Assembly (NCBI GenBank): GCA_002841695.1 | Contig: PHAN01000002.1 | Coordinates: 1-64,000, forward strand | Direction of reading: 5' to 3' | DNA: 64,000 nucleotides | Source: Elusimicrobia bacterium HGW-Elusimicrobia-1 | Lineage (GTDB): Bacteria; Elusimicrobiota; Endomicrobiia; PHAN01 | Shown: positions 21,001 to 59,420 of the stretch, one piece after another | Position numbering within the stretch: the stretch's first letter is position 1 | How the letters are laid out: the number at the start of each line of letters is the position of its first letter | Made by a program: the position numbers and the translations under genes | The notes under the pieces: model-generated | Databases searched by the model: none | What the model was told of the DNA's origin: nothing | The model's input: the letters and a program-made list of their open reading frames with translations, nothing else

Positions 21001-23994
21001 TTCTGCGTGAGAACTCGCGACTTCGTCGAATCCCCGCCCAACCCGTCGCACAACCGGTCGGCTCTTTCGGGGTCGCCGTCCACGCGGCCGAGAGGGGAGA
21101 ATGTTCACATAAACGAGGTGTATCCTCAGTCGGGCGGATGGGTGGAACTGTTCAGCAACCTTCCGTCGGAACAGTTGCTCGACGGATGGACTCTGGTTTA
21201 CAATCAGGGCACGATCGATAATCCAGCGTCCGAAGCGGTGATTTGGACCGGCAGCGCTTCGGATACTATGTCTTCCCTGTCGTTTCTTACCGTCGACGGC
21301 CTGACGCTTTCGGCCTCGCAGAGCCGTCACATAAAACTTCTCGACAATCTGGGAAGACAGGTTGATGCGGTGCAGTGGCCCGCGATGTCCTCCGGACGTT
21401 CTTTCGCGCGGATACGCGACGGCTCGGATTATTTCGAGGTCGACCCCGGCACGACGCAGAACATCGCGAACGCTGTTTATAATTCGCCCGTCAAAATTAA
21501 CGAAATCGACTATTCGTCGGCCGAAGAATTCGTCGAACTCTACAATACTTCCGAATCAACCCTGACGCTTTCGGGATGGAACATCAGGAATTCCGGCGGA
21601 TACCTTTTCAGTTTCGGCCGCAAGCTGCATCCCGCGTCATTCGCCGTAGTCGATTTCTCTTCCGTCGACGATAGCGGCGCGGGTTACGCCGCGGCTTTCG
21701 GCGCGTCCGGACTCGCCGCGTCGTCGGATTTCATCGCGCTTGAAAACGCTCAGGGACAGGTCGTAGACCGCGTGACATGGCAGTACGCTTACAAAAATTA
21801 CAAGTCGGAATCTCTCGCCTATATTCAGGGCGCTCCGGCAGGAGCCGTTCATTCGATAGGCAGATATCAGACGGACGGAACGGACAGCGGTTCCAATGCC
21901 GTCGACTTTCAAGCGCTTGAAGCCAAAACTTACGCGGCGCGGAATTACAATCCCGTGCCGGCCGCCTCAAGTCAAATTCACTATCCGACGGCGGGAGCGT
22001 ATATGCCGCGGCTCGGAAAAATATCGGTTACCCTCGGCGAGGACTTCTCGGAAGGGCGTTACAATTCCGTGTGGTTTGTAAGAACCCACGGCGCGCCCGA
22101 CCCCAATTCGCCGCACAGGTATCGTTTTGCCGATTTGGCGCTGGATTCGTCATATACGACGGCGCAGTCCACGTCGGTTTTGTGGGTGAATTACCCCGAC
22201 GCCGACGGCCTGCCGCTGGTGGACGGCTCCGGTTACAGGATGATTCTTGCGGCGGATAACGGTTCGGCCGCCTCGAGCGCCGTTACCGTCGACGGTCTTT
22301 ACTGCGATGCCGCCGTGCACTCGGCGTCGGCGACAGCGATAGCGTCGTCGGCGGCGCGGTTTAATAATTCGCAGAAGGCGCTGTTGTTTGCCGTGCGGAT
22401 AAACAATAAGTCACCCTCCGGCTCCGCGGGTATCGAGGCCGAAACTCTTGTAATAAAACTTCTTGAGCCCGACGGCGCGGCGCTTTCCACCGCGCGCGCG
22501 GCCGCAATGTTCAAAAGAATTATGTTCGTGGCCGACGTCGGCGGCGACGGAACTTATTATTCGGGGCTCGACACCGAAACAGTCGGAGAAATCCTCGCGG
22601 AGGATTTCAATTTGGCGGGCGGTTCGCAGACGCTGTATATCTCGCTGCCGAACGAGACGTCCGCCGTGATTATGTCGACGTCGCCCAAAACATATTTTGT
22701 CGTCGTGGAGATATCGTCTTGGGCTCATCAGGCGACGCCCGCGGGATTCAAGGCGTTTTTCGATCCGTCCGCGATAGTCCTGCGCGAAGCGCTGTCCGAC
22801 GAGAGACAATCCGCCGCGGCTTCCGCTCCGGTGACAACTTCGAGCGCGGCCATAATATCGCCCGCGCCCACTCCCGCGGGGACTTCGTATCCCGTCGCGG
22901 TCGCGCCGGCGGGAGACGAAGCCAACGAGCAGGTACAGCTGGCGGTGAACGCAGCCGGAACCGTCACAACGTCTTTCTCCGGCGGCGCCGACGGTATTCT
23001 CCGGGCATTCAACGCTTCGGGCGGCGCGAAGTGGACTTTCGACGCGCAAAGCCCCGTCACGGAGGTTTATTCTCCGTCGAGGATGGGGTTTGAGGCGTCC
23101 ACCGTGGCCTATGTCGCCACAGCGAACGGAAATCTGATAAAAATTAAGGATAACGTAACATCGGCGGAAATCCTATGGAGCAGAAATCTCAATGCTTCGC
23201 GCGTGACGGCCATTTCGCCTACCGGCTCTCTGCCTCCGTATTATCTGGCGGCGACCCAGGAGGGGAGATTCTATAAGATATATCATGACGGAAACGACGC
23301 CGCTCCCGACGGCGGATGGCAAAACTCGCCCGGCATTTCCGGCGCCCAGGTGAAAACGCCCGTGGTCGACGACTGGACTCCCGACGTCAACGCGATATGG
23401 TTCGGCACGTCGGGCGGAGGGATGTACAGGATAGAAAACGTAAACGGTACCAAGGTCACGGAACTGACGGGACTCTCCGGAGTTTTCACATCGCCATATC
23501 TCGTCTCCGGAAAATACGACTCTAATCTGAACACTCATCACGTCTTTTTCGGATCCGACGACGGCAAGCTCAGAAAGCGGCTGTCGTCGAACCTGACGTC
23601 ATCGCCCGACGGCTGGACGGATGTCGCGCTTTCTTCCGCGGTCAGGTCTTCCCCCTGGTACGATTGGGAGTCGCCTGCCAATGTTTATTTCGGCTGCGAC
23701 GACGGCAAACTTTACAAGATTAACGCTTTGACCGGCGAACATATATGGAGTTTTGCCACGGGCGGACCCATAAGGACGGATCCTGTGGTGCTTTCATGGC
23801 TCGGACCCGGCAAAGTATTCTTCGGTTCCGACGACGGATATTTCTACGGATTGAACATGACCGACGGTTCTATGCTGCCAGGATTCCCCGTGGCTACCGG
23901 CGGCAAAGTCAGGACGTCTCCGGTATACGACGGAGCTGTCGGCAGATTATATTTCGGTTCCACCGACGGAAAAATGTATTGCGTGCAACCGTAA
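1..23994 (+). CDS. Giant modular secreted/surface protein (Ig-like, FN3, propeller and LTD modules), 5'-truncated by window edge
   Basis: This open frame fills the first 24 kb (7997 residues visible) and ends in TAA. The GTG at position 1 is not a real start: the first ~22 residues (VRARDGAQN...) are the tail of an FN3-like module, so the gene begins outside the window. Splitting at the recurrent (K/V)DTTPP linkers gives about 38 Ig-like modules of ~95-115 aa (motifs QTGDDxWR, DWTxI, GTNYVSVRAxDxAGN), about 11 FN3-like modules (SPLDGxATNQ ... YYWRVRAxDxAGN), five classical FN3 modules and two ~430-aa propeller-like modules (7495-8812, 18800-20090). Two lamin-tail-like domains follow (about 21091-21960), then a beta-rich region of unknown type and a PQQ-like propeller (about 22918-23991). 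It ends in CVQP with no sorting domain. The modules point to an extracellular structural or adhesive role; the substrate is unknown. Confidence 0.9.
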   Translation: MRARDGAQNVSGYPSYYSVTVDTTPSQVDNQQTGDDEWQRVSGKTYKVFFQDSGYAQSELHSIQYAVSTTPILGAPLRIDWTDIEIPPIGQPSYLSEWRVSFTPLMENVTNYVSVRAVDLAGNATTYTDAFYVKKDITSPVIDDQQSGDSSWIKESRAAGYSVYFQDDGGSALASAQYRPARYLAGGATYYPADWTDIFSSYQQNYYGLNWVPDFGTLTEGENHILVRVYDGAGNAQSVTQYPQPFYVRKDTTPPVALNNQSGDNTWRTSNSGFYNVDFRDAASGSGVMRFDIRVSTTAGGLPPYVSDWTAVLSTSTYEYTQDWALPASVWNQMNSSSRRYYISARAVDFAYNTSTALTDAFYVFKDTAPPRVLNNQTGDDVWQRYGGSVYNVDFEDKESLLRGAQYIVRSGPSPSDTAWPRGWLNIFTSTGTSGYYNDWSVSFADLWEGTNYVFVRSSDGAGHSFESSQPVFYVKKDASEPWIEKSQTGDLSWRSSSGTLYGVFFNDAVSGVTTAQYRITDPSGSTIFDWTNIFSGTASYQSYASSWSVSSAAFVVLPEGTTSHVFVRCYDAAGYVKTLSEAAFLILKDTTPPFAVVNNDYYEYTHSDWFVDADLFDAKTPGRQPGASGLSSARYAIYTSTGMTGTERKGWTGISGLTAGATYFDTPWKIDFTALPVGTTCYVSVNIADLAQNTSTHIDAFRVLRTTPTAMIITINETDTYEWHGSSDAFLSRYFDVDFAVGQDAFVSTAAVVVYDAPYGGGNLLVPETIVISTGDVVEYNDDWRVIPATFTPDYAIWAQLIEGVNYVAIKAYDSEGATSTLYDVFVVRKDTTQPTVPLLSSPLDGGATNQNSVVFSWQASSDLTSGVTFYQFEVSASGDFSPPEISSQVYTNLVITALSGETTHFWRVRAADAAGNFSAWSSVFSVRRDTTPPTAPVLQTPANVSAANQNTVSFGWVSSEDSFTGVRRYVLEVSSSQNFSPINISSVTLSTAAPLLLNQATHYWRVAAEDWAGNRATSASYFSVLVDTTPPSTPALSSPLDGETTGQTAMSFSWEPSDDGGSRGGSGVAAYGFYLSTSADFAMTVSSERVTSAANAIAVGEGKYFWRVRAEDAAGNYSGFTSAYSLNIDTSPPVITVNQTGGGQWINNTGAQYDVDFYDAVGGLAAVQYAVYTSSERAGGTLVKDWTDITSPAGAAYFTNDWQIDFNALPQGATCFVSARSWDTLLRYATHYNAFTVLKDITNPSISDNQPGDDSWRKTGAAVYSVGFQDAGGAGLREFQIKIMRGALGSGATVQDWTSSGTSVAGTTFYHTPWPLSAESWNALPEGRNYVSARVFDNSWSPSRGYNSDTLSDAFYVRKDTTPPVVVNNQAGDDNWRNANNAFYNVDFRDAASGSGVQRFDVRTASYPSASVFLTDWIAVISTATHEYTPNWQLPSAAWTSIISGSTSCVWVRVVDFADNETQSADVFYVLKDTVPPTINNAQSGDDVWRKDGASAYAVSFEDTGGSRLGKYQIRASSVGYAASPYIFDWTDGSTVISGATSYATPWQLTSQQWTMLASGTNYISVRVVDKSFSTTTVDAAFYILKDTQPPTAFLDVAGFSSSLAFEIPYTVSDGGFSGISHVKIYYTSQTEPPYTYTLYASTTANPAWFEASVEGTYGFRLVPYDNALNAGAADPPSSATAPEATVLVDATPPSINDQQAGDDSWRAAAKPDGYAVYFNDAGSGLDTAQYIVRAGPSQYDTVVKGHTDIFSALGQNSFNDKWHPDFAALQSSWNYVSVRAWDVAGKTSTLENVFYIKKDTSSPVISYSDYASGGDEIWLAAARSGGYNVDFYDGLSMISRADYRIAASSEPSSQTIYGPQAIATAVSSHGYVADWTVNFAALRENSTNYVHVILTDIAGNSATHYAFFVLKDTTPPTITNQESGGDSVWRQTGRNYSVFAGDRISAGRTDKLKSLEYTARTAPALGGTALVSWTTPQASAVNIGATYYASPWPAAFDLLQNGTNYISVRAADMAGNTTAWVDAFRVLKDTLPPVIDDNQSGDTAWRKANNGSYSVSFRDEHSGVKYFRTSVRSAPSGGGDLLDGWRTILDNINATYYMTPWQLSADAFLNMSEGAGNYVSVACYDALGNYSVLEDAFYVRKDTTPPVITDNETDDETWYSSSRNYSVSFRDAVSLLDSAQYYVSTGPARTGQLVKGWTAIFSGLNLDEYTSAHQPDFSALSQGYNYVSVRAFDAAGNVTSLDDVYFVKKDTVPPSVITDISQETGAGEGRINLSWTSPLDPAPGGGISYYTVKYATFQITESGFDGNPAVGTFLQNWSPAFSGGTEYRTLTGLSQGRYYYTAVKSVDAVGNISPAAFSPQQTMAAADSLSPYAVTTLAASAGDYAGQIRLSWLAPGDNGLDGNLAGTYVEGDAYSGWYRIRRWENTNPVSNFDTGGYTQIDNPFAPGVAGSRENYLVEGLNQGSTYYFMARAVDKAGNFSTSNAASSLPAPPGAAAGHMLWGSGALSTPKVSRWTPPDWSVSANAASAASTVRWTRVAACPVLRNEKIVGVLAGNAAAGSGKIYLQRFDGSSWTDMLGQVNSTLIDDRYRAFDVAYERNSGRALVTYYNGTTGAVGYRVWSSTAADWVVGKAAPVSYAMSGMSGAVQWLRLASRPSSNQIIMAALDSNSYIFSAVWDGASNKFLSVSTMVHTTAAESNIYESFDVAWERNSGRAMVMWGQPTSTIRYSLWSSTASVWATVSAGGPAFGDDIYWVKLAADPTSDRLAVTAVGRTPPPRNPSWNVSIWDGSSAWSAPPAKDAAIETNASRAADIAWEKDSGRCVSVAGDLNSREISYLFWSPSDGWHDPVSQTGALTPNTAPKTSAGTMNLSGDINTIGLLGDPNQNKIMCYVLDQSGALSVVNWTGSAWAGKSVRDTAVSDGTREPSHMALDRHDIVPPTMANNQTGDDVWRKANDGAYSVTFNDSGGSNLSKFQVKATTGTAQSSQMILDWTDNMTFAAALDSYATPWQLSSSVWNGIRDGTNRIHVKVFDGAGGSAVGENLFYIKKDTTAPTAPSLSYPLTGAATNQTPLSFGWNASSDSASGVAGYEFYVSTASNFSVFTSSEFAAGQSVSRPLASALYYWRVRARDAAGNVSVYSSSYSVVMDTAVPSRISNVDGDYVWKKSSGTAYDVRFYDALAGLTSAYYRVWNSTGQSGTMIFNWTPINSLPIGATYYEQPWPLTAQRWGLLPNGTNYVSLRVFDSAANFADFTDEFFIRKDVLAPSAPSLSSPADGSTGNNTQVAFDWSQATDAHSGVAGYEFYVSTDSAFAVFASSEYASAPPVERNLGSGGYYWRVRAVDGAGNYSAYSSSFTLTISTSPPTPPVPLSPADGLASSNPLPVFDWSDSSSESAAIASYELHISTDIFFTVNELSAQSATSYYETVDPLDSGRYYWRARAVDGADNYSEWSSTRSIVIDTISPSIDNKEAGGDSVWRNDIKSGGYDADFADGGLSGLNDVVYKVHASPSEGGAVVVSWETIRSTYSPYAAAFTPPWTASSMENNIGVDFAVLPNGTNYISLRASDLAGNVTTWIDAFRIMKDVIHPTVTNLIQGGDFTWRNSSGTTYGVQFNDSGGSNLLKFQVRLSTSPEPNAATLLDWTDRVASINAAAYTSPWPLTASQFALLPDGATSYVSVRAHDLAGNTTTWFAAFAVLKDTTLPHCVINEPPDRGWLVSNPGAIWDVDFFDTPAAGRLPGSSGLNNILYRAISSTGGTVIDWSATATSVGTTYYVTNFAVDFAKLPGGISRVDVRAVDLAGNVTTYVGAFNVKKDTAAPVIEVAFDTATVTWINTSRNYNVNFYATGVTNLEAVQYTVRDAPSGGGNSRVDWTNIVAPPVGAPSYTADWQAAFAALLEGGTNYVSVRCWNAAGSTVTLTDAFRIFKDVSVPSIVDRVSGDDTVWRSTPTAQYDVDFYDTPSSGSGLDRFLLKAATGQSQSGEIVRDWQDEKILSGATFYTANWPLSWGTWNSLRQGANYISARVLDGAGNESELSDIFYVRKDTTAPTINDQQTGDTAWRKTNSTAAYKVYFADSGGSKLSRFEVAAATSGVWGASALLAGWTTAQSSINADVYSSSWALPSSVWTALESRATNYIFVRAFDNALPANSTSSASSVFYVLKDTVAPRIIDNENVSRGWMKTDPGAVWNAAFEDVFAHNSGLDTAQWSARAAPDGGGSLVVGWTDIFSSLGQSSYSDAVNAGFNMLGAGTNYITLRVWDVAGSTTSLADAFIVLKDTFGPSITDTQAGYDTWLAADPGAIWTAAFYDGLSGLSSAYYFVNSAAGFGGEQVAGPSTLFEGVASPSHDETFAFAAGDFELLGEGTSYVTVTAYDALGNRTTFYDLFYVRKDVTPPVCADEQPDVTAHSQNDVAAVAVKFYDNGGSGLDRVQYRAAPSAGNPAEYIINWTDIALPSGATHYTEAWSLPFAQLPNQATSYISARAYDLAGLSTVYVDVMSVYKNATGPGITDNQPGDDNWRNTLSGVYFNVDFQSNSGLHLDKFEISVTSSSDGGGVQITTWSVIAANIGAVGYTQNWQIQPDSYFFNRWPQGLSYAHVRVTDLVPTSAVLYNAFYVRKDTAPPSIVSAQEGDAVWRASSGTLYNVAFYDYGVGLSSAQYLVSRSSTDVLGTALSGWTTVFALSVPSTGGQAAYVTPWAPAFSFLAEAVTNYVSVRAFDGFGHASSSWAVFYVLKDTTPPSVPSASIPEDASLISSADVTFEWGVSSDSASGVAGYDFEVSTSADFGVLSSAFYTTETSTQIAHNSGGYRWRIRSVDVAGNRSAYSASREFLVDTSSPSVENLEAGGYGVWLSSNPGAIWRVFFLDIGIGLTTAEYRICSAGGNADEDELTPWRAIYAGTPLSVYDSSWAISGDDWANIPAGTAYVSVRVYDAVGLSFILADAFFVKKDTSPPSISGADAMQGTDNVWRSAAKSGGYDVKFNDGHSLLKDAWYAVSTNTAASGPLAGDGWVSIFSNLNDSDYAVSWAPAFAFLSEGVTNYVSVSVRDSLMNHATYYDVFYVLKDVTKPSVVNNHAAGFDTLWRKEDPGAIYDVDFFDLGGSKLSKFRTRVTTASAGSGAVVWGWTDHSDLSGLNTTHYTSVWSMDFQNLLEGFNRVSVRVFDAAGNEETLADAFIVRKDTTPPSITKNSTWDEAAWRSTPPTVDVDFADSAGGSGIAGFDIMVSTDYDGASELVGWTLVAATATYSYSADYQVPQAVFDLMSSASTNYCFMRVYDAAGNTTTAAGYVFVVNKDTAPASIVNNESGGDQFWRTGSTARTYDVNVYAAGLSRLSFVEYNAFKDGAQTLGWAPVPGFSAGVDLFEDDWAIDRFDELVDGGTHYISVRAQTESGRTVTLENAFIVKKDTTPPSVPSLYSPLDGSATSQAALSLSWQIAADLGGGTTVYELSVSSSDDFAVILFSSSAPASQWPSVTLSLTEATYYWKVRAQDAASNYSGYSAAYSVAVDTTPPSQANLASPADGFATNYHLPVFSWSSSEDSGPAGIKGYRLEISTSAGFVPVSHSSYVYALQASAALAQSATYYWRTVSIDRAENYSESVSAYALVYDTSPPSAPALMAPSDNHATNYASVNFAWTAQDVGPSGIGGYVVETSTSADFANIEYSSATGAPSHTAAFGEGLYRWRVRASDRAGNLSAYSSTRTFAVDTTSPSAVAMTVPGSGARLSSATVVFEWLPSQDFGPSGIAGYVLRVATSSDFTTVAYSSAVGADRIYAAVSPAGGIYFWQVRTLDRAGNYSVSASSEITIDTQRPRAAVNQSGDVAWRSASGTVYDVDFFDEPPSSGAGLRDAYYRVYASTTSAGLPSGQELAGWSQIFSKTLPEKTTHYTSDWNIDASWGNLAQGYNFIFIQATDLAGNSTDYSSYAFYVKKDTAPPYFTSGESAYPSWENADRNRDVGFFDGGSGVKTASCTVRSAPNFGGNELIPWTTVFYTETPAGSFSGGWSPDFGLLAPGTNYVSVRAADDLGNVAVSTDIFRILKDTVPPSAVTDLSASQGAVSATVGLMWTAPSDDVISAPSDLRAKSYLVKYKTSPFSSTADFLASGTTFQYAPPPGLPGSTENLTVTGLTEGATYWTGILPSDKAGSYASAISTSSAWAKRVAPSKITGLAASAPETLNPGEVRLSWTATGNDDYSGTAAGYAVRYATYAFSDAQWSWVNSYSQSWSPLPAGSLEERVLSMPQQGATYYFAVKAYDGAASGANYSVMSDTVSVVSAPRGPADGMAVYAQGTSATPQYYTMTAAGASWAGPYPAQAAAGTIYWSSLKGCPVLRNEKLLATLSSGGQIYFQRFDGISEQWQTPVLLDTIASADAVVKPFDVAYEQTSGRALVVWRSGTAGRVYYRIWSSTAASWANDSTEIIIGGTGLIRWARLEPRPGTDEIMLVTMDANRKIYAYRWNGSAWSDNALLTTGANVAYTANYQCVDLAWEGSRGNCLIMWGQAATVKYAMWSSTDSVWGAVDVAGPALSGVATGINWVRMAYDRSSGSDRIAASIISADNLGAVDWLVSVWNGTAWPDATALSSNLDERLTRLSDVAWEKDTGKCLAVGAVSAAPAQYVSYSVWTDAGGWSAASLYDAYNLGNSVDIRWMRLSPDPNSNKIILSASNAGSAGAVSLRTLVWSGDLWSGDAALTALGSNASYEFFSSDYDRHDNVSPTISDNQSDDDTWRNTASAFYDMEFYDSGGSRLSKLQTRLASGAGGIGVYRDFADEITGINSDSLTEPWRFCAQTWSELRRGQTHVSVKIFDGAGNTASLADAFYVRKDTEPPTITNNSAGESSVWRNANPGAVINVDFADQTGLSLLSSATYVSGAVSQNIFEYAPARLSYETNWGLSGSSWELLPSGTNYLNISAYDVAGNTSSIAAAYKVLKDTTPPASITDLSAAAGPFKGSVDLTWTSPRDAESGANLYTVKYASYQITDTALFDAATSWTTNMSAKSFAQTENLTITGLAVSATYYFCVRTRDFVESPPNPSHNRSALSGSPSTRPRGENVHINEVYPQSGGWVELFSNLPSEQLLDGWTLVYNQGTIDNPASEAVIWTGSASDTMSSLSFLTVDGLTLSASQSRHIKLLDNLGRQVDAVQWPAMSSGRSFARIRDGSDYFEVDPGTTQNIANAVYNSPVKINEIDYSSAEEFVELYNTSESTLTLSGWNIRNSGGYLFSFGRKLHPASFAVVDFSSVDDSGAGYAAAFGASGLAASSDFIALENAQGQVVDRVTWQYAYKNYKSESLAYIQGAPAGAVHSIGRYQTDGTDSGSNAVDFQALEAKTYAARNYNPVPAASSQIHYPTAGAYMPRLGKISVTLGEDFSEGRYNSVWFVRTHGAPDPNSPHRYRFADLALDSSYTTAQSTSVLWVNYPDADGLPLVDGSGYRMILAADNGSAASSAVTVDGLYCDAAVHSASATAIASSAARFNNSQKALLFAVRINNKSPSGSAGIEAETLVIKLLEPDGAALSTARAAAMFKRIMFVADVGGDGTYYSGLDTETVGEILAEDFNLAGGSQTLYISLPNETSAVIMSTSPKTYFVVVEISSWAHQATPAGFKAFFDPSAIVLREALSDERQSAAASAPVTTSSAAIISPAPTPAGTSYPVAVAPAGDEANEQVQLAVNAAGTVTTSFSGGADGILRAFNASGGAKWTFDAQSPVTEVYSPSRMGFEASTVAYVATANGNLIKIKDNVTSAEILWSRNLNASRVTAISPTGSLPPYYLAATQEGRFYKIYHDGNDAAPDGGWQNSPGISGAQVKTPVVDDWTPDVNAIWFGTSGGGMYRIENVNGTKVTELTGLSGVFTSPYLVSGKYDSNLNTHHVFFGSDDGKLRKRLSSNLTSSPDGWTDVALSSAVRSSPWYDWESPANVYFGCDDGKLYKINALTGEHIWSFATGGPIRTDPVVLSWLGPGKVFFGSDDGYFYGLNMTDGSMLPGFPVATGGKVRTSPVYDGAVGRLYFGSTDGKMYCVQP
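6760..9150 (+). repeat. Intragenic block duplication, copy 1 (FN3-FN3-propeller-Ig)
   Basis: Inside the giant gene, two classical FN3 modules (starting VITDIS and VTTLAAS) are followed by a ~430-aa module containing CPVLRNEK, FDVAYE, WSSTA and DIAWEKDSG motifs and ending in DRHD, then by an Ig-like module. The same order of modules recurs at 18082-20430. The copies are clearly related at protein level but diverged, so the duplication is old. Confidence 0.75.
18082..20430 (+). repeat. Intragenic block duplication, copy 2 (FN3-FN3-propeller-Ig)
   Basis: This is the second occurrence of the four-module block seen at 6760-9150: two FN3 modules (VTDLSAS, ITGLAAS), a ~430-aa module with CPVLRNEK, FDVAYE, WSSTA and DVAWEKDTG motifs that again ends in DRHD, and an Ig-like module (ISDNQSDDDTWR). 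The two blocks lie about 11.3 kb apart within the same reading frame. Confidence 0.75.
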
Positions 23995-24041
23995 AAGTTA
24001 TAGGTAAAGTTATGGAAAAACCATACGCTGTTTCCATTAAG

Positions 24042-24148
24042 GTCATTGCGAGGAGGAATCAAGTGTTCACACTTGATGACGACGCGGCAATCTTACAACG
24101 GCGAGATTGCTTCGTCCCCCGCATCAAGTGCGGGGTCATCGCAATGAC
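24042..24148. repeat. Repeat A: 107-bp element with perfect 10-bp terminal inverted repeats
   Basis: The left end GTCATTGCGA (24042-24051) is the exact reverse complement of the right end TCGCAATGAC (24139-24148). Internal inverted segments (ATCAAGTGTTCACACTTGAT and CAATCTT...AGATTG) make it strongly hairpin-forming. Similar GTCATTGCGAGGAG...GCAATGAC strings recur between genes in many unrelated bacteria (from memory). It carries AGGAGG at 24051-24056 followed by an in-frame GTG at 24063, and so forms the 5' end of the next gene. Confidence 0.8.
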
Positions 24149-26615
24149 AATGTTTTTTGGTTTGTTGTTTTCAGCTGCTCCGGCTCGCGCCGCATCGTGG
24201 ACTTCCTATCGCAAAAACGCCTCCAGAACCGGAGACGCTATGGAATACGCCCGCCCGAAACTGACGCCGTTGTGGAGTTATACCGTGCAAGGAGCGTTCT
24301 TTGCTTCTCCGGTGGTTTACGGTGACACGGTTTATGCCGGTTCCCGCGATGGCTCCGTGTGGGCGTGGCGCGCCTCGGACGGCGAAGTCCTCTGGCAGCA
24401 GTCCACGTCGGGTTGGGTCGATTCGACCCCCTGTGTGTGGAAAGATTATCTCATAGCCCTTTCTAAGGACGGCGTGGTCTACTGTTTTAATCGCGCGACC
24501 GGCGAGCCGGTGTGGACATTGTCGACCGGAAGAAGCAACGTCTCGTCGCCGATTGTTTACCGGGACACGCTGTATTTTATGTCCGGCGCTCCGGGCTCGG
24601 CGCTGGTCAAAATTAATCCTGCCACGGGCGCGCTGCTCGGAGAAATTCAGCTTTCGCTCTACGGTTTTTCCTCGCCTGCCGTCGACGGGGGGATACTCGC
24701 CGTGGGAACCAACGACGGCAAAATAAACATAATCGACCTTGATTCTTCGCAGACCGTCCCAATTCAGACCTTCGGCGGAATCAAGTACATAACGCCGACC
24801 ATAAAGGACGGGAAAATATACGCGGCCACCGACGGCGACGAACGCCGCGTGATGGCTTTCGACATTCACGGCGACGAAATATGGAAAACGCCGCCGCTGG
24901 CGCGCGTCCCTATGAGCGCTTCCTCGCTGGCCATAGGCGATTCCTACGGTTACGTAGCCGTGAGCTCCGACTCCTCCCGACTGACGCTGCTGAAATTTTC
25001 TCTGGCCGACGGAACCACGATTTGGGCGCGCAATACCGGAACTCCGCCTTCGGGCGGGCGCATGCCCTCTCCTGTCTTAGTCAACGATCTTGTCTTTATA
25101 GTGTCCGGCGACGGATACCTGATGGTGCTGACTTCTTCGGGTTCTTTTGTCGAGCCGTTTACCGGCGCCGCGGTGGAGCAGAGCACGGGCGTGTGGCTCG
25201 GCTCCGGTTCCGCCGGATCCTGTGTCGTTTCCGGCGGAAGAGTTTTTGCCGGAACTCTGGGCGGAAGGTTTTGGGCGTTCGACTGTGAAAAGAAAATATC
25301 CCTGACTTACCCCGACGATTACGACGTTGCGGTAAACTCCGTGACTGTTACCGCTGCCATCACGGACAAGTCAGTGAACGATTATACGCTTGAGTACAGA
25401 AAGGAGACGGATTCCGTCTGGGCGTCCGTATCCGAGGGCTCCGCCGCCTCGGGGGAAAATATTGCCGTGGCGCAGTGGAACGCTTCGGGCGTCGCCGACG
25501 GAGCTTATGTGTTGCGGCTTACCGCCAATTCTTCGGTATCGCGGCGGGCTTTCAGTCGTTTTACCCTGAATAATTCGCCGGCCCCGCCGACTAATCCGTC
25601 CGCATCGGACAAACCTTTCGACGGCGGTGGGCGCATAATCCTGCGGTGGTCGAAATCCGCCGACGACGGCGCGGGCAATAACGACGTGGCGGGCTACAAG
25701 ATTTACAGAAGCACTTTTTCGGGCGGAGGATTCGTCCGGATTGCGACGGCTTTCGCCGGTTCGACTTCATACGAGGATGCCTCGACGGTGGACCACACCA
25801 CTTACTATTACCGTCTCAAGGCCTACGATTCTTTGAGCGATTCTACGGAGTTTTCCGCGGAGGCGTCGGCTTTTTCGATACTCGACGGCAAAGAAGTCGC
25901 GCCTGGCGCGGCGGCGGAAATTTTACTGTCCCTGCCCGACGGCACGGTGGTTGAGGCGCATATACCCGCCGGCGCGACGGATGAGACCATTTTCGTGGGC
26001 ATACGCATTCCTTCGTCGATACCCGATGGCGGGGTTCCGCGCTGGGCGAAAAAGACATCGAGGATTTATGAATTCGGCGCCACTAAAGCCAACGGCGAAA
26101 AACTCTTGCGTTTTCTTGTCCCCGTCACCATCAAAATTCCCTACTCCGCCGCCGACATATCCGGAATGAATGCGGACAATCTGAGAATTTACAGATATTC
26201 CGAGGATAAATCCGAGTGGCGGGCGGTCAACACTTCTTTTGTCGACACGTCCGCCCGGAAAGTCGGCGCCGAAATCCCGGGCTTTTCACTTTACGCCATT
26301 ATGGAATATCTGCCCGGGCGGGAAGAACTTATCTCATTCGACGGCACTTATGTGTATCCCAACCCGACTCGCGGCTCGAAAGCTCATTTTAAGTATTATC
26401 TCGGCGACAAAGCGGACGTTACCATTGAGATTTACAACGTGGCGGGTGAAATCGTGGCGCGTCTGGAACGCGCGGATAATCCGGCGGGCATCGCCTCGGA
26501 ATTGGAATGGGACGCGTCGCGCGTCGCCAGCGGAGTTTATATTTGGAGAATAGAGGCGCGCTCGGTTTCGGGAGCCGTAAAGTCGCTAAAGAAAAAGCTG
26601 GCCGTCATAAATTGA
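24063..26615 (+). CDS. Secreted PQQ-propeller/FN3/ZU5-like protein with T9SS-type C-terminal domain
   Basis: About 850 residues from GTG 24063. The order is: signal peptide (h-region MFFGLLFS, cleavage near ARA-A), PQQ-type propeller repeats (DGSVWAWRASDGEVLW), an Ig-like stretch (~25290-25570), an FN3 module (~25580-25870), a ZU5-like region (DGTVVEAHIPAGATDETIF; ~25890-26300), and a ~90-aa FlgD/Por-secretion-tail-like domain (YVYPNPTRG ... GVYIWRIEA) at the C-terminus. Start choice: AGGAGG lies 6 nt before GTG 24063, but both are inside repeat A. ATG 24012 (weak AGGT) and ATG 24144/24150 are alternatives. The propeller resembles the C-terminus of the giant protein upstream. Together with the PorV/PorQ gene downstream, the C-terminal domain suggests T9SS-like export and surface anchoring (inference). 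Confidence 0.85.
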   Translation: MFTLDDDAAILQRRDCFVPRIKCGVIAMTMFFGLLFSAAPARAASWTSYRKNASRTGDAMEYARPKLTPLWSYTVQGAFFASPVVYGDTVYAGSRDGSVWAWRASDGEVLWQQSTSGWVDSTPCVWKDYLIALSKDGVVYCFNRATGEPVWTLSTGRSNVSSPIVYRDTLYFMSGAPGSALVKINPATGALLGEIQLSLYGFSSPAVDGGILAVGTNDGKINIIDLDSSQTVPIQTFGGIKYITPTIKDGKIYAATDGDERRVMAFDIHGDEIWKTPPLARVPMSASSLAIGDSYGYVAVSSDSSRLTLLKFSLADGTTIWARNTGTPPSGGRMPSPVLVNDLVFIVSGDGYLMVLTSSGSFVEPFTGAAVEQSTGVWLGSGSAGSCVVSGGRVFAGTLGGRFWAFDCEKKISLTYPDDYDVAVNSVTVTAAITDKSVNDYTLEYRKETDSVWASVSEGSAASGENIAVAQWNASGVADGAYVLRLTANSSVSRRAFSRFTLNNSPAPPTNPSASDKPFDGGGRIILRWSKSADDGAGNNDVAGYKIYRSTFSGGGFVRIATAFAGSTSYEDASTVDHTTYYYRLKAYDSLSDSTEFSAEASAFSILDGKEVAPGAAAEILLSLPDGTVVEAHIPAGATDETIFVGIRIPSSIPDGGVPRWAKKTSRIYEFGATKANGEKLLRFLVPVTIKIPYSAADISGMNADNLRIYRYSEDKSEWRAVNTSFVDTSARKVGAEIPGFSLYAIMEYLPGREELISFDGTYVYPNPTRGSKAHFKYYLGDKADVTIEIYNVAGEIVARLERADNPAGIASELEWDASRVASGVYIWRIEARSVSGAVKSLKKKLAVIN

Positions 26616-26619
26616 GTCA

Positions 26620-26715
26620 GTTGAAAAACCCTTGTTATGTCATTCCCGCGAAAGCGGGAATCCAGATTTTCCGTCGTAGTATGGATTCGTCCCCGAATGT
26701 CTTTATCGGGGATAA
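26620..26715. repeat. Repeat B copy 1 (96 bp, core hairpin ATTCCCGC-GAAA-GCGGGAAT)
   Basis: It runs from GTTGAAAAA to GGGGATAA. The core is the perfect hairpin ATTCCCGCGAAAGCGGGAAT, followed by a second hairpin (CCCCGAATG...ATCGGGG). It matches the copy at 56643-56738 at 94 of 96 positions by direct comparison. It lies between the end of the propeller gene and the PorV-like gene, and stays open in the frame of the latter. The encoded strings (VIPAKAGIQ, SFPRKRESR) are familiar spurious peptides in many genomes (from memory). Confidence 0.85.
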
Positions 26716-26728
26716 ACTGATTTTTTCG

Positions 26729-28231
26729 ATGGTCCGTCCGTCTTTCTGCGCCGTGTCCATACATCCCGACGCGGGTACTACGGCGGCGGCGTTTCTCAAG
26801 CTTGGCGCCGGCGCGCGCGCGTCGTCAATGGCCGGAGCGTTCACAAGTATCGCCGACGACGCTACGGCCGTCTACTGGAATCCGGCGGGACTTATGTCGG
26901 TTCCGCGCAGAGAGGTTGTGGCGGCTCATAACGAATCTTTTGAAGGCATAAGACACGATTACGTCGGATACGTCGGAGGACTGAAAGGAAAATACCGGTG
27001 GGGCGCCGCGTTTTACGGGCTTTATACGCCCGCGGATATCGAGAGGCGCGGCGGTCTCAACGAGGACGACCCGTTTGAACCATTGTCGCCGGTGGAGGGA
27101 TATTTCGCGGCTTACGACGCGGCATTGTCCGTGGCGGCCGCGCGAAGATTCGGCGCGAAGTTGTCGGCCGGCGCCGCCGTAAAAGTCATAAATCAGACCA
27201 TCGACGACAGAACCGGCCGGGCAGTCGCCTCGGATATCGGCGTTTTGTACGAATATTCGGATGAAATATCGCTTGCCGGAACGATTAAAAACGCGGGCAC
27301 TTCCCTTGCCGTCGGGGAAAAAAGCTATCCGCTTCCGCTGTCCGCGAATCTCGGCGCCGCGTGGTCTAAAAAATTCCCGTCGTCGGGATTTTTAAGAAGC
27401 GCCGTCGAAATCTCGTTTCCGAACGATAATTATCCGTCGCTGCGCGCGGGCGCGGAATACTTTCCCGTCGAAATGTTCGCCGTGCGCGCGGGTTACCGTT
27501 ACCGTTTCAACGGCCCTGAACTCGATGATTTGAGCGGTCTTGCCGTCGGCGCCGGGGTAAAAATATCCGACCTGCGGCTGGATTATTCCTTCAACCCGTA
27601 CGGCGCGCTCGGGAATTCCCACAAAATAACATTGAGCGCGGTTTTCGGACCGCGTATCGCGGGCGTCGACGAAAAAATCGCCCCCCGCGGGGAACCGTCC
27701 GCATCGGGTTCCGCGCCGCGGACGATACCGCGGATTGATGTGGCGCTGCCCCGGGGCGGGCCGTTGCCCGCCGCAGAATCCCGGACGCCGCCGGATTCAG
27801 AATTTTCTTCATCCACGATTATTTTTACGCCCGGCATAGTTTCCGCGACGGGAGTTACGGGATCGATATTCTCCGAGCCGTCCCGCGACGGCATCAAATC
27901 TTTCAGAGCGTCGATCTCCGCGCGCGGTGTTTTCTCCGGCGCGGCATTGCGCACGGCGGTGCGCCGCGCGCCGGACGATTCTTCGTCGGAGTATTATTTC
28001 AGGATGGACGCGCCGGGGCGGTTAAGCGATGTGACAGTGGTAATCGAGACATCCGGAAAAATCAAATCCGCGAGGGCTCTGATGCCCCCGTCGGCCGTCG
28101 GTGTCCCGCCGAAAGTATCTGTCGTTGAGGCGCCGCGGCAGGCGGCTTCCGCCGGAGGGACTTCTAATGGACGTTTTGTATACGAGATAAAGTCGGAGCA
28201 ACCCGTTGATTTTCAAGCAGTGTATGAATAG
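26729..28231 (+). CDS. PorV/PorQ-family outer-membrane beta-barrel protein
   Basis: About 500 aa from ATG 26729. The opening DAGTTAAAFLKLGAGARASSMAGAFTSIADD...YWNPAGL is the hallmark of the PorV/PorQ (FadL-like) family, whose PorV member shuttles T9SS cargo to the attachment complex. The barrel covers roughly residues 15-310. A Pro/Ser-rich linker and a ~110-aa beta-rich extension follow, which the family normally lacks. The N-terminus is odd: only MVRPSFCAVSIHP precedes the conserved block, which is a poor signal peptide, and repeat B ends 13 bp upstream. The frame is open back to TTG 26612, which overlaps the upstream stop as TTGA, so translation through the repeat is possible. No convincing Shine-Dalgarno precedes 26729. 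The link with the CTD-bearing protein upstream is inferred from adjacency. Confidence 0.85.
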   Translation: MVRPSFCAVSIHPDAGTTAAAFLKLGAGARASSMAGAFTSIADDATAVYWNPAGLMSVPRREVVAAHNESFEGIRHDYVGYVGGLKGKYRWGAAFYGLYTPADIERRGGLNEDDPFEPLSPVEGYFAAYDAALSVAAARRFGAKLSAGAAVKVINQTIDDRTGRAVASDIGVLYEYSDEISLAGTIKNAGTSLAVGEKSYPLPLSANLGAAWSKKFPSSGFLRSAVEISFPNDNYPSLRAGAEYFPVEMFAVRAGYRYRFNGPELDDLSGLAVGAGVKISDLRLDYSFNPYGALGNSHKITLSAVFGPRIAGVDEKIAPRGEPSASGSAPRTIPRIDVALPRGGPLPAAESRTPPDSEFSSSTIIFTPGIVSATGVTGSIFSEPSRDGIKSFRASISARGVFSGAALRTAVRRAPDDSSSEYYFRMDAPGRLSDVTVVIETSGKIKSARALMPPSAVGVPPKVSVVEAPRQAASAGGTSNGRFVYEIKSEQPVDFQAVYE

Positions 28232-56620: not shown

Positions 56621-56642
56621 GGGCATCGAGGTATTTGAAACC

Positions 56643-56738
56643 GTTGAAAAATCCTTGTCATGTCATTCCCGCGAAAGCGGGAATCCAGATTTTCCGTCGT
56701 AGTATGGATTCGTCCCCGAATGTCTTTATCGGGGATAA
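56643..56738. repeat. Repeat B copy 2 (96 bp)
   Basis: It is identical to the 26620-26715 copy except at two positions near its left end. It sits between the attenuator and the btuF start, so riboswitch read-through transcripts include its hairpins. The small ORFs across it (containing SFPRKRESR or VIPAKAGIQ) are spurious. Confidence 0.85.
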
Positions 56739-59330: not shown

Positions 59331-59420
59331 AGGAAGTGGATAGTGAAGTAAAAAGAAGTGAATAGTGATTAGTGGACAGAAAAAAATACTATTCACCATC
59401 CACTATTCACTAATCACTTT
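59331..59420. repeat. Repeat D copy 2: heptad-periodic sequence upstream of btuB
   Basis: AGTGGATAGTGAAG and GTGAATAGTGATTAGTGGACAG lead into an A-rich spacer (CAGAAAAAAATACT), then four heptads ACTATTC, ACCATCC, ACTATTC, ACTAATC (59388-59415). The arms are partly complementary. It fills the gap between the btuD and btuB genes, as copy 1 fills the wza-wzc gap; the CAGAAAAA spacer is shared. Confidence 0.7.

Follow-up and report, generated by a model that had tools for sequence, protein, structure and literature searches.

A palindromic MITE-like element most likely read through in frame as part of a surface-protein signal peptide in an Elusimicrobia genome

The Yersinia repeat known as RU-2 or Yersinia palindromic sequence forms part of the predicted signal peptide of YPO1552, and the homologues of this protein in other genera carry unrelated signal peptides (Delihas 2007, PMC2759123; PMC2229807). 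Rickettsia palindromic elements are read in frame inside the bodies of unrelated protein genes (PMC10969869). GTAG/CGTC REPs are single hairpins of 20-40 bp with end tags; many of those at predicted N-termini reflect mis-called starts, and the repeat may be extragenic, with the true start downstream (PMC3733652). That warning is the main caution for the case described here.

In a 64-kb stretch of the genome of Elusimicrobia bacterium HGW-Elusimicrobia-1 (contig PHAN01000002.1, positions 1 to 64,000; hereafter the window), a palindromic element with terminal inverted repeats (TIRs) lies at the 5' end of a surface-protein gene (Table 1). We propose that it was inserted in the signal peptide, that the frame was kept, and that the element is read through from ATG 24012; comparison of sequences gives this reading a probability of about 0.7. 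As with Yersinia RU-2, a short TIR-bounded repeat would be fused in frame and contribute to a predicted signal peptide; the repeat itself differs, and the insertion in the window splits the n-region from the core. Further differences are the distinct variant that a sister species carries at the site and the recurrence of the fusion on several surface-protein genes. The Rickettsia elements are likewise palindromes read in frame within protein genes (here predicted, the frame being open in two species); unlike them, none of the 50 complete elements that we surveyed in sampled stretches of the window's own genome (G000) and of its same-genus sister (G001) lies inside a gene body with coding signal on both sides, and fusions are found at signal peptides only. 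GTAG/CGTC REPs share the dispersed palindromes, partly at N-termini of predicted proteins, but the elements here are multi-arm structures of 77-120 bp with TIRs, and we rejected REP identity for the 107-bp element.

The host gene lies between the gene of a giant repeat protein and that of a PorV/PorQ family protein (NF033709), and its product matches PF13360 (BamB-like beta-propeller) as well as PF18962 and TIGR04183 (type IX-type sorting). Since it combines a beta-propeller with a type IX-type sorting domain and has a PorV/PorQ family neighbour, it is expected to need a Sec signal peptide. Upstream, window positions 1-23994 form a single open frame of ~8000 codons with repeated Ig-like units and, near its end, fn3, lamin-tail and beta-propeller domains.

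Table 1. Features at the 5' end of the surface-protein gene (window positions)
Feature	Position	Strand	Basis or remark
SD-like AGGT + ATG 24012, most likely translation start	24002..24014	+	Sequence; ATG and spacing conserved in G001; lowest opening cost
Old n-region MEKPYAVSIK	24012..24041	+	Codon-by-codon alignment with MKKIYAATIN of G001
Palindromic MITE-like element	24042..24148	.	107 bp; in-frame translation VIARRNQVFTLDDDAAILQRRDCFVPRIKCGVIAMT
Left TIR GTCATTGCGA	24042..24051	+	Perfect over 10 bp
AGGAGG + GTG 24063, start proposed earlier	24051..24065	+	Judged unused: absent in G001, buried in fold
Right TIR TCGCAATGAC	24139..24148	-	Perfect over 10 bp; ATG 24144 inside
Pre-existing part of hydrophobic core + c-region MFFGLLFSAAPARA	24149..24191	+	Aligned with VVFISLFSAVTLHA of G001
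Surface protein gene, 867 aa	24012..26615	+	Signal peptide, BamB-like beta-propeller, fibronectin-like part, type IX-type C-terminal sorting domain

An earlier, sequence-only reading of the window had described a 107-bp element with perfect 10-bp TIRs and an ATG within the right one, and these features hold as placed in Table 1. Folded as RNA, the element forms a cloverleaf (MFE -56.9 kcal/mol, z = -8.0 against shuffled sequence), a fold beyond chance. It had also been called an interspersed repeat, which is true of the genome, where the family is dispersed, and not of the 64-kb window, which holds no second copy. The own genome contains 21 matches, namely the element itself and 20 partial or diverged ones, with no near-identical full-length copy elsewhere in it; the 10-bp TIR occurs 106 times there and 75 times in G001 (reversed control, 4 and 0). 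The family's right TIR includes an ATG, and AGGAG or GGAGG falls within the first 22 nt of 23 of 100 element ends (AGGAGG itself in 2/100); a Shine-Dalgarno (SD)-like sequence is thus a trait of the whole repeat family and not peculiar to the window copy.

Complete copies in the sampled stretches of the two genomes (48, of 77-221 bp) have no gene inside. Their lengths are skewed to 2 mod 3 (26:15:7). With its TIRs, short length and many copies, and without a transposase of its own, the element has the features of prokaryotic MITEs, which it also resembles in size (~80-120 bp), in the lack of own coding capacity, in dispersal and in the nested insertions that occur in the family; the flanks of the 48 copies are mostly T[..]A, with no clear pattern of target-site duplication. 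Rfam gave no match in 23900-24400 up to E = 1, and the papers listed by a literature search with the TIR sequence were all unrelated. In another genome, G095 (e.g. L215, L228), the TIR is present in ~200 copies per strand at a regular spacing near 83 bp, which suggests a recent expansion of the element there.

Starting at ATG 24012, the frame stays open across the element and on into MFFGLLFSAAPARA, in agreement with the sequence-only reading, so that the whole leader would read MEKPYAVSIK-VIARRNQVFTLDDDAAILQRRDCFVPRIKCGVIAMT-MFFGLLFSAAPARA, the element-encoded stretch including the peptide QVFTLDDDAAILQR. Because such an element is open by chance ~29% of the time, openness alone is weak evidence, and the comparison between genomes carries the case. 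The sister genome G001, the sole other genome of the order compared, has an orthologue of 65-69% identity, whose N-terminal part is on contig C277, preceded by the same gene as in the window. Exactly 10 codons past the equivalent ATG (30 nt after its A) stands a different element of 77 bp with the same TIRs, again in frame and open: MKKIYAATIN-VIASPERAKQSYLRGDCFGALPLAMT-VVFISLFSAVTLHA. Position, TIRs and frame agree between the two elements; the arms differ, and the lengths are 30 bp apart. Lengths that differ by multiples of three are supportive of coding selection and go no further, since element lengths generally skew to 2 mod 3. Each species has an SD-like sequence before the upstream ATG, AGGT in the window and GGTGAT in the sister genome. 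Between the codons of MEKPYAVSIK and MKKIYAATIN, 6 of 11 differences fall at third positions; a stretch of 30 nt does not allow coding constraint to be tested strongly.

A search in related genomes for a version free of the insertion, which had been suggested as a check, found one: the distant orthologue in G090, a genome of the same class, is element-free and has an ordinary signal peptide of 30 residues, MNERFIKTAVKNIIACTAVFLLSATHIHSA. In G091, also of this class, an element at the same junction follows the upstream stop but precedes the ATG and so stays out of the coding part. By inspection, the signal peptide cores in G094, G095 and G006, likewise of the class, consist of further short repeats, of which inverted copies stand ahead of the ATG.

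The start codon can be judged from accessibility and from the quality of the resulting signal peptide. In the sequence-only reading, the element would supply both the Shine-Dalgarno sequence and the start, the repeat thereby becoming a translation start; indeed, AGGAGG (24051-24056) lies 6 nt before an in-frame GTG at 24063. However, neither AGGAGG nor an in-frame GTG is present inside the 77-bp element of G001, in which the upstream ATG is conserved, and in the window both lie within the fold, where opening the region from -15 to +12 costs 18.4 kcal/mol compared with 8.3 kcal/mol at ATG 24012. With SD-like sequences common across the family as well, initiation at GTG 24063 is very improbable, and the sister genome and the accessibility led us to reject it. 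The postulated rescue of the frame by a new start is also unneeded, because the original start kept its frame across the insertion. A somewhat better, still unlikely alternative is that the element is an untranslated leader, that translation starts at ATG 24144 or 24150, that the open frame upstream is due to chance, and that any role of the element would be that of an mRNA hairpin. Most family members are plainly intergenic with a normal start downstream, the G091 element precedes the ATG at this very junction, and the right TIR brings its own ATG, all of which fit an untranslated leader, the first two also counting against read-through. Yet opening costs 20.0 kcal/mol at ATG 24144 (11.6 at ATG 24150) and 24.6 kcal/mol at the TIR ATG of G001, against 8.8 kcal/mol at the upstream ATG of that genome, and no SD sequence precedes the TIR ATG in G001. 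A start at 24144 would give MTMFFGLLFSAAPARA, a peptide that lacks basic residues and whose core, at 15.5, is weaker than in any orthologue tested (18.6-26.9 in four insertion-free ones). In addition, ATG 24012 and its n-region are conserved in G001, and in the cassette genes described below the right TIR is read in a frame that has no ATG. Both downstream ATGs are thus disfavoured by opening cost and signal peptide quality. Read-through from ATG 24012 gives an n-region charge of +4, a core CGVIAMTMFFGLLFSAA scoring 25.6 and the end ARA, that is, the basic n-region, uncharged hydrophobic core and AXA-type end of a Sec signal peptide by a simple measure; the score is a Kyte-Doolittle sum and not a trained predictor, and this crude version of the proposed check on the start choices is to be read as such. 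Translation most likely begins at ATG 24012, ahead of the repeat, and the element, read through, most likely supplies in-frame codons for basic residues and for the beginning of the core. The earlier suggestion that the element split a signal peptide is borne out as far as the element is located between the h-region and the old n-region and, most plausibly, forms an in-frame part of the signal peptide, with translation and export predicted from sequence.

It is also possible, though unlikely, that the elements are in frame in both species but arrived by two independent insertions at one target. The differing arms and lengths would fit this, the elements at two other junctions shared by G000 and G001 differ too, and chance alone should produce a few shared junctions when each genome has ~50 elements. 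The identical nucleotide position and phase and the similar element centre, GCAATCTTAC..GATTGCTTCG, speak against it. We infer a single ancestral insertion, translation from ATG 24012 and a working signal peptide whose n-region and core start include residues from the element. In this preferred scenario, a MITE-like palindrome would have entered the gene after codon 10 of the n-region and ahead of the hydrophobic core, probably already in the ancestor shared by the two known species of the genus. Both lengths, 107 and 77, leave a remainder of 2 on division by 3, which requires one more base, gained at the insertion or afterwards; the net reading frame would thereby be kept, with translation still starting at the original ATG 24012 and running through the element. 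The result would be a long n-region in which element codons give basic residues (QRRDCFVPRIK) and then the first residues of the core (GVIAMT). The arms would later have diverged or been exchanged, while TIRs, position and frame were retained. Exchange of arms between dispersed copies by recombination is supported by the nearly identical arms of G000 L155 and G001 L127 at unrelated places, and by the right-arm palindrome of the window element, which recurs at three other sites in its own genome.

For six of the 50 surveyed elements, the best reading is an in-frame fusion to the signal peptide of the gene that follows, namely the window gene, G001 L024, L127, L130 and L135, and G000 L149 (=L158). 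There is no in-frame ATG, GTG or TTG between element and mature protein in L127 and L130, and the only in-frame start past the element in L149 is a TTG inside the core; in the window gene, L024 and L135, the sole ATG at or just past the element end is one at a right TIR. A common right flank, the cassette RND-N(N/S)GF(A/V)xR..AA followed by the core, is shared by L127, L130, L135 and L149, which reduces the six to few independent events, perhaps three: the window/L024 site, the cassette ancestor and a second element nested in L135. The same cassette, with the right TIR alone visible, stands at G000 contig ends (L164, L166, L169, L171, L177); contigs of this genome often end in it, and the arrangement of element right end, N(N/S)GF(A/V)xR..AA and core is common to the surface-protein genes L158, L160, L164, L166, L169, L171 and L177. 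In L160, the right arm has decayed and the frame is still open, as expected if the coding and not the palindrome is maintained. The G000 orthologues of L127 and L135 (L034 and L150, respectively) are element-free, with compact signal peptides. A count test of open fusions (5/5 vs 5/41, 1.8e-4, by hand) is given little weight, because deciding that no plausible start follows the element is to some extent subjective and because the cassette genes are mutual copies. Element copies sampled from other families of the class yielded no further clear signal peptide fusion and one doubtful open frame, in G091.

The PorV-like gene next to the 867-aa gene carries in its signal peptide region an unrelated repeat of the VIPAKAGIQ type (26612-26715; LKNPCYVIPAKAGIQIFRRSMDSSPNVFIGDKLIFSMVRPSFCAVSIHPDAG), with a 95% identical second copy at 56635-56738; the G001 orthologue is insertion-free (MKKFSVSAAIIVLMSAPSVFCAVKIHPDAG; MKKFSVSAAIIVLMSAPSVFCA). 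Across this repeat (window 26566-26780), the frame is open and, by hydropathy sum, the hydrophobic core is largely lost; the insertion may be damaging. Repeats therefore do land in signal peptides here, and being in frame is no proof of function.

Arrays of 7-base units such as CTATTCA are also frequent in these genomes (G000, 180 hits vs 11 in the control; G001, 60 vs 1), for example at L106 630-669, L150 1760-1792, L174 1528-1560, L175 1531-1563, L188 1873-1905 and window 59385-59417. Since 7 is 1 mod 3, the heptamer yields the same stop-free hydrophobic heptapeptide, LFTIHYS, whichever of the three sense frames is read. Among 88 distinct arrays, 42 open into a frame of at least 90 aa; roughly half of these 42 look like signal peptide cores, and an inverted array frequently precedes their start. 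In L201 (G001 C316), arrays at 1494-1533 and 2430-2462 are in frame within Ig-like repeats (GNYSLFTIHYSLIVDTAPP), and thus within a folded domain of a surface protein. The leader and signal peptide arrays of L034, L150, L127 and L135, which are inverted copies, are more alike within a species than across species, as though one arm had been the template for the other. A literature search on such arrays found no report, and heptamer arrays that form signal peptide cores in any frame may be the more original lead.

Repeat-derived signal peptides are already known from Yersinia RU-2, and the present case extends this role to a new repeat family. Beyond that, one site holds different variants in two species, both in the same frame, and the pattern recurs in the surface-protein signal peptides of one genus. 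Signal peptides are a natural place for the domestication of selfish repeats, as they are constrained mainly in composition. We tentatively suggest, as a possibility that falls a little short of even odds, that this lineage uses dispersed repeats as recurrent raw material for signal peptides, palindromes becoming n-regions and heptamer arrays becoming cores, with the modules copied between unrelated surface-protein genes and turned over between species while the frame is kept. There is also a practical warning for annotation: a gene caller that places the start beyond such a repeat would cut off part of a real signal peptide, and one that takes every open repeat as coding would create extensions that do not exist. 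The variants in two species, the gene pairs with and without the insertion, and the cassette common to unrelated surface proteins make domestication directly testable.
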